In this document: positions 27,427 through 44,873 of the stretch, piece by piece
Layout: every line of letters starts with the position of its first letter
How positions within the stretch are numbered: the first letter of the stretch is position 1
Assembly: GCA_903926075.1 (NCBI GenBank)
Contig: CAIYHQ010000133.1
Coordinates: 1-64,000, forward strand
Source of the DNA: an uncultured Methanomicrobiales archaeon
GTDB taxonomy: Archaea; Halobacteriota; Methanomicrobia; Methanomicrobiales; Methanospirillaceae
DNA length: 64,000 nt
Reading direction: 5' to 3'
The notes under the pieces: model-generated
Told to the model about the DNA's origin: nothing
Database searches by the model: none
What the model saw: only the letters and a program-made list of their open reading frames with translations
Position numbers and translations under genes: made by a program

Positions 27427-28563
27427 TTAATTAAATGATCTTTTTGCCATGGGTCGATCAGTCTTTGTTTCAGAGAACAGGGAATTGATAACATCTAACA
27501 TCCGCAGGTTCTCATTAAGCCACAAGTAATCCTCTCTCATCGACATGTTTTTAAGAACGCTATATGCCAGATTTACTTTAGGAGTCCTCTCAAACTTCCG
27601 GTACTTATCACGGAGGATCTTTTCCAGATCTTTTTTATCAGCCTTGATTGAACCTTCATCCACGCCAAGAATTGAAAAAAATGTCTCGTCTGCGGGAGGA
27701 AGATACTGCTTCCAGTCCTGATTGATATTTAGTATCTTACTACACCTTGAATAAAATTTATTAATTGCATCGGGTTCAGTAAGAGCAAGCAGCATAATTT
27801 TATCTGATATTTCCTTGTCAATATGTTTCCAATACTCCTTTTTCTTTTCCAGGTTGTTAAGAGCCTCCCGCTCCAGGTGCTTGTAAACAAAATTTATCAT
27901 AGTATCATAATTTTCACGGGATGCAGGGTCAGTGAGAACTGAATAAATTTTCTTAAGCAACTCTGAATCTTTTGGGCTCTCTCCTTTTAGTGTCTCAATA
28001 TCCAGGTCTTTTTCGAGTCCTGCAAATTCGTAAATGTCAGGCATCCCTTCCAGGAAAAGATGGAAATAATCGTTATAAGTTTTTCTTATCTCTTCAACTT
28101 TTCCGACTAATTTTCCTTCGGCAATATGTTTACTATGTAACTCAATTAGTTCTTTTTTTTCAGAAGGGGGGAGGATTTTGGAAAACTGTTCGAAAACGAA
28201 AAGGAACTCATCATACTCTTTCCGGAGACCTGGGTTCTGAAGAACCCTGAATGCTTCAATAATAACTTCATCAGGGTAACATGAAAATTCAATTCTTCTT
28301 TCAAACGCCTGGATAACTTCTAGGATTGTTGCCCCCCTGCTAACACCCATAATGCAATAATAGGTTGGAAAACCATTCATAATGTCATTTACCCATTGAT
28401 ATTGGCGTTTTTCAAACTGTATAAACCGATTGACGTACCTGCCCAGTCGTTCCTCATTAACAAATAGTGAGGAGATCTTCCAGTAGGGGTCATCCTCAAT
28501 TGAGATATCATGACTTAAAGCCTGAACTTTCCGGGCTTTTTGAGCTCTATTTTTAATCCCCAT
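27427..28563 (-). CDS. Protein with three degenerate J-domain-like segments, partner of Hsp70 gene
   Basis: 378 residues, third gene of the chaperone-like cassette, overlapping the Hsp70 gene by 11 bases. Three segments follow the J-domain pattern of an ILGV-like start, two helices, and a final helix with VLxDPxxRxxYD. They are about 67-120 (YYCIMGVSRGATILEVIQ ... VLQNPGLRKEYDEF), 175-225 (IYSVLTDPASRENYD) and 293-348 (TFFSILGVDEGS ... NLAYSVLKNMSMREDY). None keeps the HPD tripeptide needed to stimulate Hsp70 ATPase in canonical DnaJ. It may still dock on Hsp70 as a J-like regulator or scaffold. No membrane segment. Function unproven. Confidence 0.72.
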   Translation of the reverse strand: MGIKNRAQKARKVQALSHDISIEDDPYWKISSLFVNEERLGRYVNRFIQFEKRQYQWVNDIMNGFPTYYCIMGVSRGATILEVIQAFERRIEFSCYPDEVIIEAFRVLQNPGLRKEYDEFLFVFEQFSKILPPSEKKELIELHSKHIAEGKLVGKVEEIRKTYNDYFHLFLEGMPDIYEFAGLEKDLDIETLKGESPKDSELLKKIYSVLTDPASRENYDTMINFVYKHLEREALNNLEKKKEYWKHIDKEISDKIMLLALTEPDAINKFYSRCSKILNINQDWKQYLPPADETFFSILGVDEGSIKADKKDLEKILRDKYRKFERTPKVNLAYSVLKNMSMREDYLWLNENLRMLDVINSLFSETKTDRPMAKRSFN

Positions 28564-30271
28564 CCTTATCCCTGATCAAAATCACGCTGTCATCGTCCAG
28601 GTTTAGACCGGAGATCCTTTGAGAATCATTGGGTTCAATATCATTACAAACAATTGTATCATTATCTCCGATAATGCCTTTCTCCTTTAACTCACGCTTG
28701 AGATCAGATATTGTTCCCGAAGGGTTGAGAAACATGTCAAGAGTCACTTTTCCTGACGTATTTTTTATATCGACATGGACGCTCCCAATACCAAGCAGTT
28801 TCTTCATCAATTTGCTTTTCTCTTTCTTTGAAAGTCTGCTCCGTGATTCCAGTTTTACGCTACGAAGATTACCTGAATCATCATCGTTAGCCGTGACATT
28901 TAGTATACCAAATTCTTCACCAATTTCAAAAGTCACTTTGATTCTATTTTGCCCAAAAGGTAAAGGTTCGATGTTTATCCAGAACTCACCGAGAAATTCG
29001 TTATCCTCTGCCATTTCTTCATCGCCCTGGTATACCGGAATGATGACTTCATCAACAAAATCACCGGCATTTGTGTAACCACGCGTTCTTGAAATCGGGA
29101 TCTTGGTGTTTCGCTCAATAACTTTTGAAAGTGTGCCATCAGCAATCTTCACTCCGAGAGAGCATGATACAACGTCACTGATCTCAATATTTTTTGCATT
29201 CCGTGTTTTTTCTTTCCCGTATTCAATTCCTGCAATGGCAGCGCCAAGGGCGACGGCTGTATATGGGTCTCCACTGAGAGGTTCTTTTCCGAAATAATCC
29301 CTGACAAATTCCCTGACTGCTGGAATAAGCGTTGTACCTCCGACAAGCAGAATATCATCAATCTCGTTTTTTTCAATTGACGCGTCCTGCAGTGCCTGTT
29401 CCATTGGAATTTTTGTATTCTCTATAAGGTCTTTAATAAGGGAGTCAAGTGTCTCCCGTGTCAGAACCATACTGAAGGGGGGTTTGCCTGAAGCAACAAA
29501 GGGGATGGTAATTGTCGTTTTCATGGCCGTGGATAATGCAATCTTTGCCTCTTCAGCAGTTTCTTTTAATGTCGCGAGAAGTGCCAGGTCTTTTTTTGTA
29601 TCGACGCCTAACTGACGATGTAACTTTTTAGTCACATGTTCAACTATGCGGGCATCAATATCATCTCCACCAAGCCTGTGCTCGCCGGTGCTTGCATCAA
29701 CATCAAAAAATCCCGATGCAACTGTTAACACAGACACATCAAAAGTCCCTCCTCCAAAATCATATACAAGCACTTTTCGGTCTAGGTCTTCCCGTATCCC
29801 ATATGCTAGTGCAGCAGCTGTTGGTTCGTTGATAAGTCTCACGACATTGATTCCTGCAATCTCTGCTGCGTCCCGGATGGATTGCCTCTGACTGTCAGAA
29901 TAATTCGCAGGTACTGATACTACTGCATCAAAAAACTTCTTTCCAATCCTGATTTCCGCATCATCGATAAGTTTTTTAAAAATCAGTGCACCGATGTATT
30001 CAGGAGGGAATTTGTAGCGACCGACTTTCTTATAATAGTCAGTTCCCATTTCCCGTTTGATTGAACTTACAACCTGATCTGGATTTGCAATCTGATTACG
30101 CTTAGCAAGTTCTCCGACAGTATAACTTTTTTCGCCTTTAAAATGGACGATGGAAGGTGTTATTGTCTTTCCTTCACTGTTCTCAATAACTTCCGGATTA
30201 TCGAGCAGCATATAAGCCATCTTAGAGTTTGTTGTCCCAAAGTCTATACCCAGGATATCCCTTTCTATCAT
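28553..30271 (-). CDS. Hsp70-family chaperone with C-terminal ubiquitin-like domain
   Basis: 572 residues from the ATG at 30269-30271, which has GGAG 6 bases upstream; the frame is open to 30283. The ATPase domain is complete: ILGIDFGTTNSKMAY, SVPANYSDSQRQSIRDAAEIAG, NEPTAAALAYG, VYDFGGGTFDVSVL, LLVGGTTLIPAVREF. The beta-type substrate domain follows (about 370-480). The usual alpha-helical lid is replaced from about residue 494 by a beta-grasp, ubiquitin-like segment (VHVDIKNTSGKVTLDMFL, NPSGTISDLKRELKEKGI, SGLNLDDDSVILI) ending in DKDGD, without a Gly-Gly tail. This is not the housekeeping DnaK. It sits between a GrpE-like and a J-like gene. Confidence 0.88.
   Translation of the reverse strand: MIERDILGIDFGTTNSKMAYMLLDNPEVIENSEGKTITPSIVHFKGEKSYTVGELAKRNQIANPDQVVSSIKREMGTDYYKKVGRYKFPPEYIGALIFKKLIDDAEIRIGKKFFDAVVSVPANYSDSQRQSIRDAAEIAGINVVRLINEPTAAALAYGIREDLDRKVLVYDFGGGTFDVSVLTVASGFFDVDASTGEHRLGGDDIDARIVEHVTKKLHRQLGVDTKKDLALLATLKETAEEAKIALSTAMKTTITIPFVASGKPPFSMVLTRETLDSLIKDLIENTKIPMEQALQDASIEKNEIDDILLVGGTTLIPAVREFVRDYFGKEPLSGDPYTAVALGAAIAGIEYGKEKTRNAKNIEISDVVSCSLGVKIADGTLSKVIERNTKIPISRTRGYTNAGDFVDEVIIPVYQGDEEMAEDNEFLGEFWINIEPLPFGQNRIKVTFEIGEEFGILNVTANDDDSGNLRSVKLESRSRLSKKEKSKLMKKLLGIGSVHVDIKNTSGKVTLDMFLNPSGTISDLKRELKEKGIIGDNDTIVCNDIEPNDSQRISGLNLDDDSVILIRDKDGD
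28556..28792 (-). other. Ubiquitin-like beta-grasp domain at the end of the Hsp70 protein
   Basis: The last 79 residues of the Hsp70 gene. The order strand-turn-strand (VHVDIKN, GKVTLDMFL), a Ser-Gly-Thr-Ile turn (PSGTISDLK) starting a helix (SDLKRELKEKGI), a middle strand (DTIVCND) and a final strand after an SGLNL turn (DDSVILI) is the ubiquitin topology. Side-by-side reading with ubiquitin gives matches at the TxxTIxxxK helix start and the xSxLxLxxR end. It lacks a C-terminal GG, so conjugation is unlikely; it may be a binding module. By-eye call only. Confidence 0.65.
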
Positions 30272-30290
30272 GTATCGCTCCAAGTCACAG

Positions 30291-31310
30291 TTAACTATCT
30301 CTTTTTATATCAATCTGCATATCTGTCAATTCGATGCCATCAGTATCCTGATCAGGTTTGTATTCCTCAGTGTTATAATCATCCTTTTCTTCTAGTTTTA
30401 CCGAATTTTCTACAGATGGGATTTCAGTATCCTGGCATTCTACGGATAATTGGGAAAAGACCTCCTTTAAATATTCCATCTCATCTTCATGTCTTTCAAT
30501 CGTTTCAGCCTGGACCTGCAATTGATACTCGACATCCTGTTTCTCTACGAGAGATTGGGAAACGGTTTCCTTTAAACCATTTATCTCCTTTCTGAGCCTT
30601 TCAATAGTATCAGCCTGCTCGCGCATGAGGCCTTCAATTTCCTGTTTTTCTGCAAGAGATTGAGAAACGAAATCCTTTAGCTGGTTGATATCCTCTTCGA
30701 ATCTGAGTGTTGTTTCACTCCGGGCGTGTTCAAGTTGAGAAATCTCTTCGTCAAAGTGGGCAAACCTGCCCCGGCCAGGGAACACCCAGTCCGTAAATCG
30801 ACCCCATATTTCGTTTTTTTTATTTTTGTTTTTTACACGGGGGAATTTTGAGATGATTACTTCTGCGGGTCTTATCAGAATATTCTCTCGCATGTAACCT
30901 TTTCTTATTACCGAAAAGACGCTACCTTCAGGATAACGGCTGCCATACTCGAGCCCGACTGCCATATGTAATGTATCATCGAATTTATCACCCGGTCCCG
31001 GATCAACAGGAGTAAGACCTGACGAAAAAAGGAGTTGACTGTATAATGCGTCTATATTTTTTTGAAAGTTCTCGTTCGCATCTTTGACAATATCACAGGA
31101 ATTATTATTAACCCCGCAAGATATACGACACAAAGAATCTGCAAAGACAAGCATTTTTTTTGCAAAATCAGATTGGAGTTCCTTTTTTTTAAGGGCATCA
31201 TTTTTCCGGTTGGTCTCAATATAGTCCCTGAACTCTTTTTTTAATGTATTGTATTGTGATTCTAAAAGTTCAGCTTTTTTTTGTATTTCTGTATTGGCGA
31301 AATCATCCAT
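30291..31310 (-). CDS. GrpE-like nucleotide exchange factor with coiled-coil repeat tail
   Basis: 339 residues from the ATG at 31308-31310. Residues 1-156 look like GrpE: a long N-terminal helix (KAELLESQYNTLKKEFRDYIE), a four-helix part, then the beta domain pattern FDDTLHMAVGLE, GSVFSVIRKGYMRENILIRPAEVIIS. After a basic linker (about 157-185) the tail is a coiled coil with two near-identical 35-residue repeats (LKDFVSQSLAEKQEIE... and LKETVSQSLVEKQDVE...) and a partial third, then an acidic end. First gene of the cassette; a TATA-like GATTATATG at 31338-31346 suggests a nearly leaderless transcript. Confidence 0.8.
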   Translation of the reverse strand: MDDFANTEIQKKAELLESQYNTLKKEFRDYIETNRKNDALKKKELQSDFAKKMLVFADSLCRISCGVNNNSCDIVKDANENFQKNIDALYSQLLFSSGLTPVDPGPGDKFDDTLHMAVGLEYGSRYPEGSVFSVIRKGYMRENILIRPAEVIISKFPRVKNKNKKNEIWGRFTDWVFPGRGRFAHFDEEISQLEHARSETTLRFEEDINQLKDFVSQSLAEKQEIEGLMREQADTIERLRKEINGLKETVSQSLVEKQDVEYQLQVQAETIERHEDEMEYLKEVFSQLSVECQDTEIPSVENSVKLEEKDDYNTEEYKPDQDTDGIELTDMQIDIKRDS

Positions 31311-32465: not shown

Positions 32466-33217
32466 ATGACATATGGAAGTAAATTCAGGTCGCGGATGTC
32501 TCATGATGACATGCAAAATATTGCCCAGTTGATTGAATCTCTAACCCCTGATAACCCATATGTGACTATTGAGCAGCGAATTTTTAAGCCAGATGGCAGT
32601 ATTCGATGGCAAAGATCGGTTGACCGAGCTATCTTTCATAATGAGGGTAAATTAAAGGAATATCAATCAGTTGGCAGGGATATTACTGAACTTAAGGAGC
32701 GCGAGTTAGATTTAAGCGAGAAAAATTATCAACTGCAGATCTGACGAAAAGTCTGCATTCCTTAAAAAATCTGAAATTGAAGGGTATGTAAAAGAATTTC
32801 CATTGTAACTCAGGAAAATTGATGTCGAAATTTTTGATACTTTTATTAATATTGTCCCTCTTCGAGAAAAGAACGGTTCGATAAAGGCATTTATTGGTAC
32901 ATTTCGGGGTGTGACAGAGCGCAAACGAGCTGATGAAGCATTACGGGAAAGTGAGGAGAAGTACCGTGCACTCTTTGCAGCCGAATCGGATGGTATTGTT
33001 GTAGTTGAGAGAGGAACCGGAATAATCCATGGATTGTAATGATGCATACCCTCAAATGTATGGTTATCGAAAGGAAGAGATAATTGGAAAACTTAAACTT
33101 CTCTCAAGCATAACCTGGCACGGCATAAACAATCAACTTACAATACAGGAGACAGGTGAGCCGGGGGAGGGAGCACGGTTTGAGATTACAATTCCAAATT
33201 GGAAATGGCGATTTTAA
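32466..33217 (+). pseudogene. Collapsed PAS-histidine kinase
   Basis: Pieces of a kinase closely related to the next gene: a PAS end (SLTPDNPYVTIEQRIFKPDG, VGRDITELKEREL) to a stop at 32742-32744, a second PAS piece in another frame (IVPLREKNGSIKAFIGTF, VTERKRADEALRESEEKYRALF), then from 33029 a frame in which PAS (YPQMYGYRKEEIIG), the H-box region (LKLLSSITWHGINNQL, with His changed in context to WHGI) and the last ATPase residues (TGEPGEGARFEITIPN) are joined directly. Internal deletions removed the N and G boxes. It ends inside the ribosome-binding region of the intact kinase. Confidence 0.8.
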
Positions 33218-40970: not shown

Positions 40971-43508
40971 ATGGAAAAGGCAATATATCTAAAAATTTTT
41001 AGTATCGCCTTTATTATTCTGTTAATAATCCCTGGCGCTATTGCAATAGTTATTAGCAAAGGAGATTCAGTCGTAAAGGCTGATCAGGTCCGTTCAATTT
41101 ATGGAGTTGACGGATATGGTGTCAAGGTCGGAGTCATATCTGATGGTGTTGACTCACTCCCACTTATTCAGCAGATGGGCGAACTTCCCTCTGATGTAAC
41201 AGTCCTATCAAACCAGAATGACGGCGATGAAGGCACAATGATGCTCCAGATAATTCATGATATTGCCCCTGGTGCCCAACTCTACTTTCATGACTCAGGG
41301 ACGAGCCCGAAAGACTTCAATCTTGCTATCGATGCACTCCTCGCTGCCGGATGCCAGATTATCTGTGATGATATCAGCTTTACAAATGACCCGGTATATG
41401 AAGATGGCGTTTCGGCCGCCCATATTCAAAAACTCATACACGGCAACAGGCCATTTATCGAGGTCTCGGCAGCAGGAAATTATGCCCTCCAACATTACAG
41501 GGCACAATATTACAAGGGTGAAGATAATTACCATGATTTCTCGCTTGGAAAAAGCAATCTAACCGATATTTACCTTGATATCCCTTACCTTCAAAAGATC
41601 ACGGCTATTTTAAAATGGGACGAAAAGGCTGACACTTCAAAAGATGACTATGACCTCTTTCTTGTGAGGGCATCAAATGGTGAAATACTTAAGTCCAGCC
41701 AAATTCGCCAGAACGGAACAGGAATGCCATTTGAATATCTTCGCTGGATTAACATGGGCCAGAATACCGAGCGGGTTGCAGTTAGAATTCAAAACCACGA
41801 GGGAAAAGCCGCCCAACGCGATCTTGATCTCCTGCTTGTTGTTCCAACCGACGTAACAATCCTTCCCTATAACCTTATCACTGACCATTCGGTATTCGGC
41901 CACACCGGTGCCCCTGGAGTCATATCTGTTGCAGCGGTTTCTGCTGATAACACAAATACAATCGAGCCTTATTCATCAGCAGGAACAGTCGATATCCTCT
42001 TTCCTAAAAAAGATAAACGAAAAAAGCCTGATATCACCGGCCCTGACAATGTCGAAGTTATTGGCAGTTCAGGTAAGGTGGTTTCGTTCTCCGGCACAAG
42101 TGCGGCTGCTCCGCACATCGCAGGGGTCCTAGCATTACTCTGGAGTGCATTTCCCGGGACGGATGCCGCTGACATTCGTGAGAGCATTATCCGGACCGCA
42201 ACTGATCTCGGGTCTCCGGGCTGGGATGAACGCTATGGCTATGGGCTTGTAGATGCAATGAAGGCGATTAAGTCACTCGGTACTATCGAAACATCGAAAT
42301 CGCATGCAGAGAGAGTAGGTTGGACTCCTGAAACAATCGTGATGAAAAACGGAACAATTAAAGGGGAATATTACCCTGATGGTAACTTCAAGGTTACAGG
42401 ACCTGGCCTCATCGATAGGCCGGGAAATTATCGCCTTGCGAGGGACATCCTGCAGAGCGGGAGGAGATTTACAATTTCAATCAACTGTTCTGATGTAACA
42501 CTTGATGGTGACGGACATACTATCAGCGGAGTAATTTTTGGTGAAGCACGTCCAAAAACGCAGGCAGGGCTCAATATTAATGGGATGTACCGTGTAATAC
42601 GGAATATAACAATAAAGAATCTCCAGTTGAAAGACTTTGACTGGGGTATATTCCTCGGCCTCTCTAAAGAGGTCTGGTTAGAAAACTGTTCTCTCACGTC
42701 TAATTTTGGAGGGTTATTTAGCATCAAGGGCGAGAACCTGACCATAAGAAAGAGCACTATAACAGGAAATGAATACGGGATATATGAATTTGGAGGGAAA
42801 AATCCAGTTCTCATTTCAAACACCTTCAAAGACAATACTGAAGGCCTTACCATGTATAACCCCCAAACAGGGGAAGTAATTAACAATAATTTTATTACAA
42901 ATACAAAGCACGGATTATTTATTTTCGATTCCGGTCCAATTGACTTTACGAACAACTCATTTCTTGGAAATTATCTTTTTGGACTTTCCCTGGTAAATGT
43001 GTCAGGGATGAACGTGGCAGACAATATTTTTGTTGACAATTTTAATGCAGTATCAATTGTTAATTCCAATAAACCGGTAATCAGAGGGAATCTTATTAAA
43101 GAAAATACAGGGATTGGTGTAGGAATCATCGACTCAGAGAACATTCTCCTGAAAAACAATACTTTGGGGGATAACAATTATGGAGTTTCAATTTATGGAG
43201 GGAAAAATATTTCCGTTCTTATGGGCAGCATAATTGGAAATAAGCGTGCAGGTATTGTTGCAAATGTATCAGAGAATATAACAGTCAAGGAAAACACAAT
43301 AAGTAGCAGTAAGACCGGAATTATCTTCGCAAATTCAAGCTGGAATTCGGTCATATCAAATGAGATCATGAAAAACAGTATTGGAGTATTACTCCAGAAT
43401 TCAAGTGAAAACAGGCTTGACAATAATATTCTGGTAAACGAGAAGGATATTATGATGATCCCGGAGAACTCGATAAATTACCTGAACGGAACAAGGTACA
43501 GAACATAA
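40971..43508 (+). CDS. Secreted subtilase-like protease with beta-helix repeats and Glu in place of His
   Basis: 845 residues with an N-terminal signal/anchor (8-26). The protease part (about 35-440) has VGVISDGVDS (Asp58), the oxyanion stretch EVSAAGN and the nucleophile GTSAAAPHIAGVLALLWS (Ser near 376). Where subtilisins carry HGTxVA, this reads DEGTMMLQIIHDIAPGA with Glu87, as in a subgroup related to sedolisin-like chemistry. Residues about 460-840 are right-handed beta-helix (NosD/PbH1-like) repeats rich in Asn ladders (ITGNEYGIYEF, NNFITNTKHGLFI). It probably acts at the cell surface, with the helix binding sugar or protein. Confidence 0.85.
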   Translation: MEKAIYLKIFSIAFIILLIIPGAIAIVISKGDSVVKADQVRSIYGVDGYGVKVGVISDGVDSLPLIQQMGELPSDVTVLSNQNDGDEGTMMLQIIHDIAPGAQLYFHDSGTSPKDFNLAIDALLAAGCQIICDDISFTNDPVYEDGVSAAHIQKLIHGNRPFIEVSAAGNYALQHYRAQYYKGEDNYHDFSLGKSNLTDIYLDIPYLQKITAILKWDEKADTSKDDYDLFLVRASNGEILKSSQIRQNGTGMPFEYLRWINMGQNTERVAVRIQNHEGKAAQRDLDLLLVVPTDVTILPYNLITDHSVFGHTGAPGVISVAAVSADNTNTIEPYSSAGTVDILFPKKDKRKKPDITGPDNVEVIGSSGKVVSFSGTSAAAPHIAGVLALLWSAFPGTDAADIRESIIRTATDLGSPGWDERYGYGLVDAMKAIKSLGTIETSKSHAERVGWTPETIVMKNGTIKGEYYPDGNFKVTGPGLIDRPGNYRLARDILQSGRRFTISINCSDVTLDGDGHTISGVIFGEARPKTQAGLNINGMYRVIRNITIKNLQLKDFDWGIFLGLSKEVWLENCSLTSNFGGLFSIKGENLTIRKSTITGNEYGIYEFGGKNPVLISNTFKDNTEGLTMYNPQTGEVINNNFITNTKHGLFIFDSGPIDFTNNSFLGNYLFGLSLVNVSGMNVADNIFVDNFNAVSIVNSNKPVIRGNLIKENTGIGVGIIDSENILLKNNTLGDNNYGVSIYGGKNISVLMGSIIGNKRAGIVANVSENITVKENTISSSKTGIIFANSSWNSVISNEIMKNSIGVLLQNSSENRLDNNILVNEKDIMMIPENSINYLNGTRYRT

Positions 43509-44783: not shown

Positions 44784-44873
44784 AGCCTTCGGCGGGAATC
44801 GGACCCGCGACCTCGTCCTGTTTGGTCACAATTGATTACCAAGGACGCGCTCTACCGACTGAGCCACGAAGGC
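44784..44873 (-). tRNA. tRNA-Thr (anticodon GGT) with 17-base intron
   Basis: 90 bases on the minus strand. Acceptor GCCTTCG pairs with CGAAGGC, discriminator T. D arm GCTCAGTCGGTAGAGC, anticodon stem CGTCC/GGACG, T arm GCGGG-TCCGATT-CCCGC. The mature loop is TTGGTAA with anticodon GGT (reads ACC). A 17-base intron at 44820-44836 interrupts after position 37. The precursor TTGGT can pair with ACCAA of the intron, as expected for a bulge-helix-bulge splicing motif. Confidence 0.93.

Follow-up and report, generated by a model that had tools for sequence, protein, structure and literature searches.

Hydrolysis of ATP that is triggered by the HPD motif of a J-domain protein and transmitted through the interdomain linker is regarded as the mechanism common to Hsp70 machines, and in eukaryotes BAG-1 connects Hsp70 with the proteasome through a ubiquitin-like domain (UBL). 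In DnaK, modelling puts D35 of the HPD motif close to R167, with the J-domain contacting residues 391-393 of the linker (PMC5519331); the VLLL linker is the conserved hydrophobic element (PMC5448104). Not every J-like domain carries the motif: that of Pam16 is devoid of HPD, cannot stimulate mtHsp70 and blocks stimulation by Pam18 (PMC12953747). Among published dedicated sets, the closest is the Hsp70/GrpE/FNIII-DnaJ theme of the GAP1-N2 systems, in some of which the Hsp70 is without a peptide-binding domain (PMC7159879). A description of the trio of genes reported here was not found in the literature searched, which comprised open-licence papers only.

The window (the whole stretch of DNA analysed, 64,000 nucleotides) carries a single tight cluster of GrpE-like, Hsp70 and J-like genes on the minus strand (27427-31310):

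30291..31310, minus strand: grpE-like gene, 339 aa; core of GrpE helix and beta-wing at aa 7-155, then a C-terminal coiled-coil tail of 35-residue repeats
28553..30271, minus strand: hsp70 gene; nucleotide-binding domain and SBD-beta both complete, with a polar linker (I-E-I-S-D); helical lid absent; ubiquitin-like C-terminal domain
28556..28837, minus strand: C-terminal short helix and ubiquitin-like (beta-grasp) domain of the Hsp70, in place of the lid; without terminal Gly-Gly
27427..28563, minus strand: J-like gene, 378 aa; DDPYW motif at the N-terminus; three J-like segments, 0/3 with HPD

The grpE-like and hsp70 genes are separated by a gap of 19 nt, and hsp70 and the J-like gene overlap by 11 nt; hsp70 starts at an ATG at 30271 and stops at 28553, with an alternative upstream TTG at 30283 also possible. 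An earlier note, made from the sequence alone, had taken these three coupled genes to encode all three partners of an Hsp70 machine; Pfam names GrpE, HSP70 and DnaJ in the three minus-strand open reading frames, and the trio as first reported is confirmed as real. The note had also placed it between mobile-element and kinase debris. This is imprecise: the trio is flanked by PAS/histidine-kinase genes, its nearest neighbours yield only PAS, kinase and methyltransferase matches by Pfam, and no mobile element was seen adjoining the window copy. An association with mobile elements is not supported. Further along the window, broken PAS/histidine-kinase fragments (32466-33217, plus strand) lie directly ahead of a similar intact 1088-aa receiver-PAS-kinase gene, a protein with a subtilase domain and NosD/right-handed beta-helix repeats is encoded at 40971-43505 (plus strand), and a 90-nt tRNA at 44784-44873 (minus strand), perhaps with an intron or a long variable arm, was matched by Rfam and missed by ARAGORN.

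The earlier reading would have failed had these proteins been the only Hsp70 set of the organism, with ordinary domain structures, or had their gene order been found nowhere else. Neither is the case. The same genome contains a separate canonical grpE-dnaK-dnaJ operon (L007), with a normal DnaJ bearing LARKYHPDVC, and the possibility that the trio is the housekeeping set was rejected for this reason. Complete trios were identified at 42 loci in about 41 genomes, always in the order GrpE-Hsp70-J and on one strand, and seven further contigs start inside hsp70 and thus hold cut cassettes. The hosts belong to the Methanomicrobiales, relatives of Methanoperedens, a probable ANME-1 family and other families of one order, and named records with the cassette include Methanospirillum hungatei and Candidatus Methanoperedens. 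Profile searches recovered strong J-like homologues in 9/108 genomes of the host's own family, 20/51 of family f10 and 24/186 of another order, as well as in a single alkane-oxidiser-like genome. Family f10 probably represents ANME-1, an assignment resting on one McrA (genome G136), all 579 residues of which align with PDB 3sqg, the ANME-1 enzyme. A two-motif scan of 84,980 species returned archaea only, although it is a weak test of bacteria, having missed most cassettes later found by genome search.

A second, diverged trio is present on another contig of the window's own genome (L006 8816-12742, G000 contig C76), with identities to the window copy of 68% for GrpE, 86% for Hsp70 and 60% for the J-like protein. 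The dN/dS between the two copies is 0.08 for Hsp70, 0.25 for the J-like protein and 0.29 for GrpE, indicating that all three are under protein-level constraint, Hsp70 changing slowest. Given these values and the open frames, the window trio as a product of chance or a pseudogene was rejected. Broken single copies do exist elsewhere (G176, G252). Next to the second trio are a fragment of an IS66 transposase (L006 7693-8190) and a gene for a class-II glutamine amidotransferase.

Within each family the distribution of the cassette is patchy, as might be expected of a biological-conflict (anti-virus) system resembling the Hsp70-GrpE-DnaJ theme of the GAP1-N2 GTPase systems, in which Hsp70, GrpE and DnaJ-fused proteins occur together (PMC7159879). 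We consider this highly improbable: PADLOC gives only one weak coiled-coil match, no effector, GTPase or tubulin neighbour was seen at the loci compared, several ANME-1-family loci have neighbours that look housekeeping as judged from sequence, and no relatives of the trio were found in viral contigs or plasmids. A defence system was therefore rejected for want of PADLOC support and of effector neighbours, and a viral or plasmid origin for want of such relatives. Among the first 32 loci compared, no other neighbour family is conserved, save between close relatives.

The three proteins show correlated pairwise distances (Spearman 0.71-0.87), and in the tree the cassette Hsp70s are a clade of their own, distinct from the canonical DnaKs encoded by their host genomes (the monophyly flag reads 'False' due to one mislabelled cassette copy, L093). 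Most cassette genomes have a separate full-length DnaK match; ANME-1-family genomes encode, in addition to the cassette Hsp70, two or three DnaKs of canonical type and full length (G136 C19/C34, G242 C78/C29, G225 C220/C80/C258). The cassette proteins could be imagined to regulate the housekeeping chaperone, acting on canonical DnaK/DnaJ in the manner of Hsp110 or of Pam16, whose block on Pam18 stimulation provides a precedent for an HPD-less J-like protein (PMC12953747). However, the cassette has an Hsp70 and a GrpE of its own and its three proteins co-diverge, and such a role appears very unlikely. In three genomes a J-like gene occurs without a neighbouring Hsp70 gene: G411 and G413, which belong to one genus, retain a remnant of GrpE, and G326 has the J-like gene alone (loci L119 1850-3343, L122 and L068 1988-3085). 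The J-like protein may therefore have an independent function.

Each of the three proteins departs from its housekeeping counterpart. The GrpE-like protein matches Pfam GrpE (PF01025, 1.7e-26) over aa 7-155, with both the helix and the beta-wing of the GrpE core. Its tail, which the earlier note had described as a repeat coiled coil, is indeed built on a 35-residue (five-heptad) repeat, self-identity being 44% at offset 35 as opposed to at most 16% at the other offsets tested (20 to 49); among homologues the 35-residue period occurs in several, while the tail is longer in some and absent or of period 32 in others.

The Hsp70 (Pfam HSP70, 2.6e-142) retains the ATPase positions T11, K70, E171, D194 and D201 of an actin-type ATPase domain, as well as the peptide-binding beta-domain, assigned from the Pfam match up to profile position 513 and from the alignment through SBD-beta, peptide binding itself being inferred. 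The match ends at position 513 of the 599 in the profile, the point where the lid would begin, so that the alpha-helical lid of an Hsp70 is missing and the C-terminus is instead ubiquitin-like, as first proposed. Searched with a profile of eight homologues, the PDB yields single ubiquitin chains at an E-value of about 4e-7, with profile positions 16-88 aligned to Ub 1-73, and Pfam ubiquitin matches 6/8 homologues; Pfam does not detect the domain with the window sequence alone, and the homologue profile is needed. The AF2 model of this end (pLDDT 79) shows a beta-beta-alpha-beta fold with a final strand and matches ubiquitin structures at TM 0.7-0.86 (Foldseek). The ubiquitin (beta-grasp) fold is therefore real and established, and the cassette adds a ubiquitin-fold/Hsp70 fusion in archaea. 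None of the cassette Hsp70 C-termini inspected ends in the Gly-Gly required for conjugation, which indicates a built-in domain and not a conjugated modifier. With the fold established and BAG-1 as precedent for a link between Hsp70 and the proteasome through a UBL, the domain might bring Hsp70-bound clients to the archaeal proteasome or an unfoldase. We regard this as quite unlikely, since to our knowledge archaeal proteasomes are without the receptors Rpn1, Rpn10 and Rpn13, and proteasome genes are not among the conserved neighbours in the loci compared.

The J-like protein matches Pfam DnaJ (2.8e-10), and its AF2 model (pLDDT 83) has helices arranged in a J-like pattern at about 66-130, 177-229 and 293-350 (J1, J2 and J3). 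The J fold of J1 is supported by the Pfam match, by a PDB J-domain profile (5e-7) and by Foldseek with a probability of 0.99, but an E-value of about 1; a Foldseek search with the full model gave nothing at E below 0.001, J1 standing out by probability only. J1 is thus the sole segment backed by sequence and Foldseek, and J2 and J3 rest on an aligned pattern and on a predicted model built from 7 sequences, the third segment having a conserved VNLAYSVLKN core. No HPD was found in the II-III loop of any J segment in 52 homologues (0/52); an 'HPD' string in one homologue was rejected as a true motif, being located in a spacer outside the J loop. The earlier description of three degenerate J segments without HPD consequently stands as regards the motif and J1, and only provisionally for the other two. 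In J1 the HPD-equivalent loop reads CYPDE in the window copy and [S/T]xYPxE in most members, and helix II is basic (mean net charge of +1.8 across 13 residues).

The surface that receives the trigger has changed as well. Linker positions 390-392 read V-L-L in 18/18 canonical DnaKs, all taken from cassette-bearing genomes, versus E/D-I-S in 44/44 cassette Hsp70s (the members with that region), which accordingly do not have the conserved hydrophobic interdomain linker. R167, present in 18/18 canonical DnaKs, is changed in 17/43 cassette Hsp70s (R 26, G 14, A 2, K 1), its loss covering one whole clade of the family; as the sequences share descent, neither count represents independent events. Taken together with the absence of HPD from the partner, these changes mean that the target on which an HPD would press has altered along with the loss of the motif itself. 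A possible, though tentative, interpretation is that the HPD-linker trigger has been given up on both sides in favour of other control, exerted via a triple J-like scaffold devoid of HPD together with the ubiquitin-fold domain that replaces the lid, and that this arrangement is widespread among archaea that oxidise methane anaerobically or produce it in syntrophy. Alternatively, the Hsp70 cycle may be an ordinary one with a borrowed trigger, the canonical DnaJ present in the same genome supplying the HPD and the J-like protein only selecting clients. D393, N170 and T173, like every ATPase position tested, are unchanged in the cassette Hsp70s and R167 is kept in 26/43, so that many of them might still respond to an ordinary HPD protein; on the other hand, the linker change in all 44 members and the loss of R167 throughout one clade would weaken HPD action, and Y145 is replaced by N in 27/43. 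We judge a borrowed trigger unlikely, although it retains some plausibility.

The canonical operon, the 42 loci, the fixed linker changes and the partial loss of R167 all support the initial view of a dedicated, re-wired Hsp70 system and not the housekeeping set. What the sequences themselves establish is a lidless Hsp70 with intact ATPase motifs and a ubiquitin fold, a GrpE with a tail, a J-like protein without HPD, and the fixed linker changes. That these constitute a second, dedicated Hsp70 machine of three co-inherited proteins, with the HPD-less J-like partner as docking scaffold, is the explanation we favour over the others, though only at about even odds; a working machine has not been shown and there is neither biochemistry nor complex prediction. 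In such a machine the Hsp70 would still cycle between ATP and ADP and be reset by its own GrpE, nucleotide exchange being itself inferred, and hydrolysis would presumably not be triggered by HPD. The J-like protein may dock on the nucleotide-binding domain via the basic helix II of J1, without triggering, and would provide a scaffold and select clients. We infer that the ubiquitin-like domain is a protein-docking module with a lid-like or tethering role, its most likely partner, at a guess, being the J-like protein or GrpE. One or a few specific clients, so far not identified, would be served.

The trio is a conserved triad, ATPase-competent by its motifs, that coexists with a normal DnaK in the cell and shows changes to trigger and receiver alike in all members found. 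It would allow the indispensable parts of the Hsp70 cycle to be tested, as well as whether an Hsp70 can use a different trigger, and is a candidate quality-control factor for methane-oxidising archaea.

Compared with the housekeeping DnaK-DnaJ-GrpE set, the cassette comprises the same three families in the order grpE-dnaK-dnaJ, with an Hsp70 that is 40% identical over its full length and a conserved GrpE beta-wing. In contrast, its Hsp70 is lidless, has a ubiquitin-like end and a polar linker and belongs to a separate clade, its J-like protein is without HPD and without the zinc, G-F and C-terminal client domains of DnaJ, and its GrpE adds a coiled-coil tail. As in BAG-1, a ubiquitin-like domain is tethered to an Hsp70 machine, although in BAG-1 it is part of the exchange factor and in the trio of Hsp70 itself, where it replaces the lid. 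With Pam16/Tim16 and other HPD-less J-like proteins the trio shares a J fold without HPD beside an Hsp70; however, Pam16/Tim16 is mitochondrial, with one J-like domain and an HPD partner, and the known proteins of this kind (Pam16, PMC12953747) regulate that partner, whereas in the trio a single protein combines three J-like segments and the operon encodes no HPD partner. GAP1-N2 systems likewise join an accessory Hsp70 to its own GrpE and a DnaJ-bearing protein (PMC7159879). Their GTPase and FNIII components are absent from the Pfam matches of the nearest window neighbours and from any conserved neighbour family at the loci compared, and while these systems combine a GTPase with FNIII repeats and are reported mainly in Actinobacteria and Firmicutes (PMC7159879), the trio has no GTPase, keeps the beta-domain of its Hsp70 and resides in archaeal hosts.
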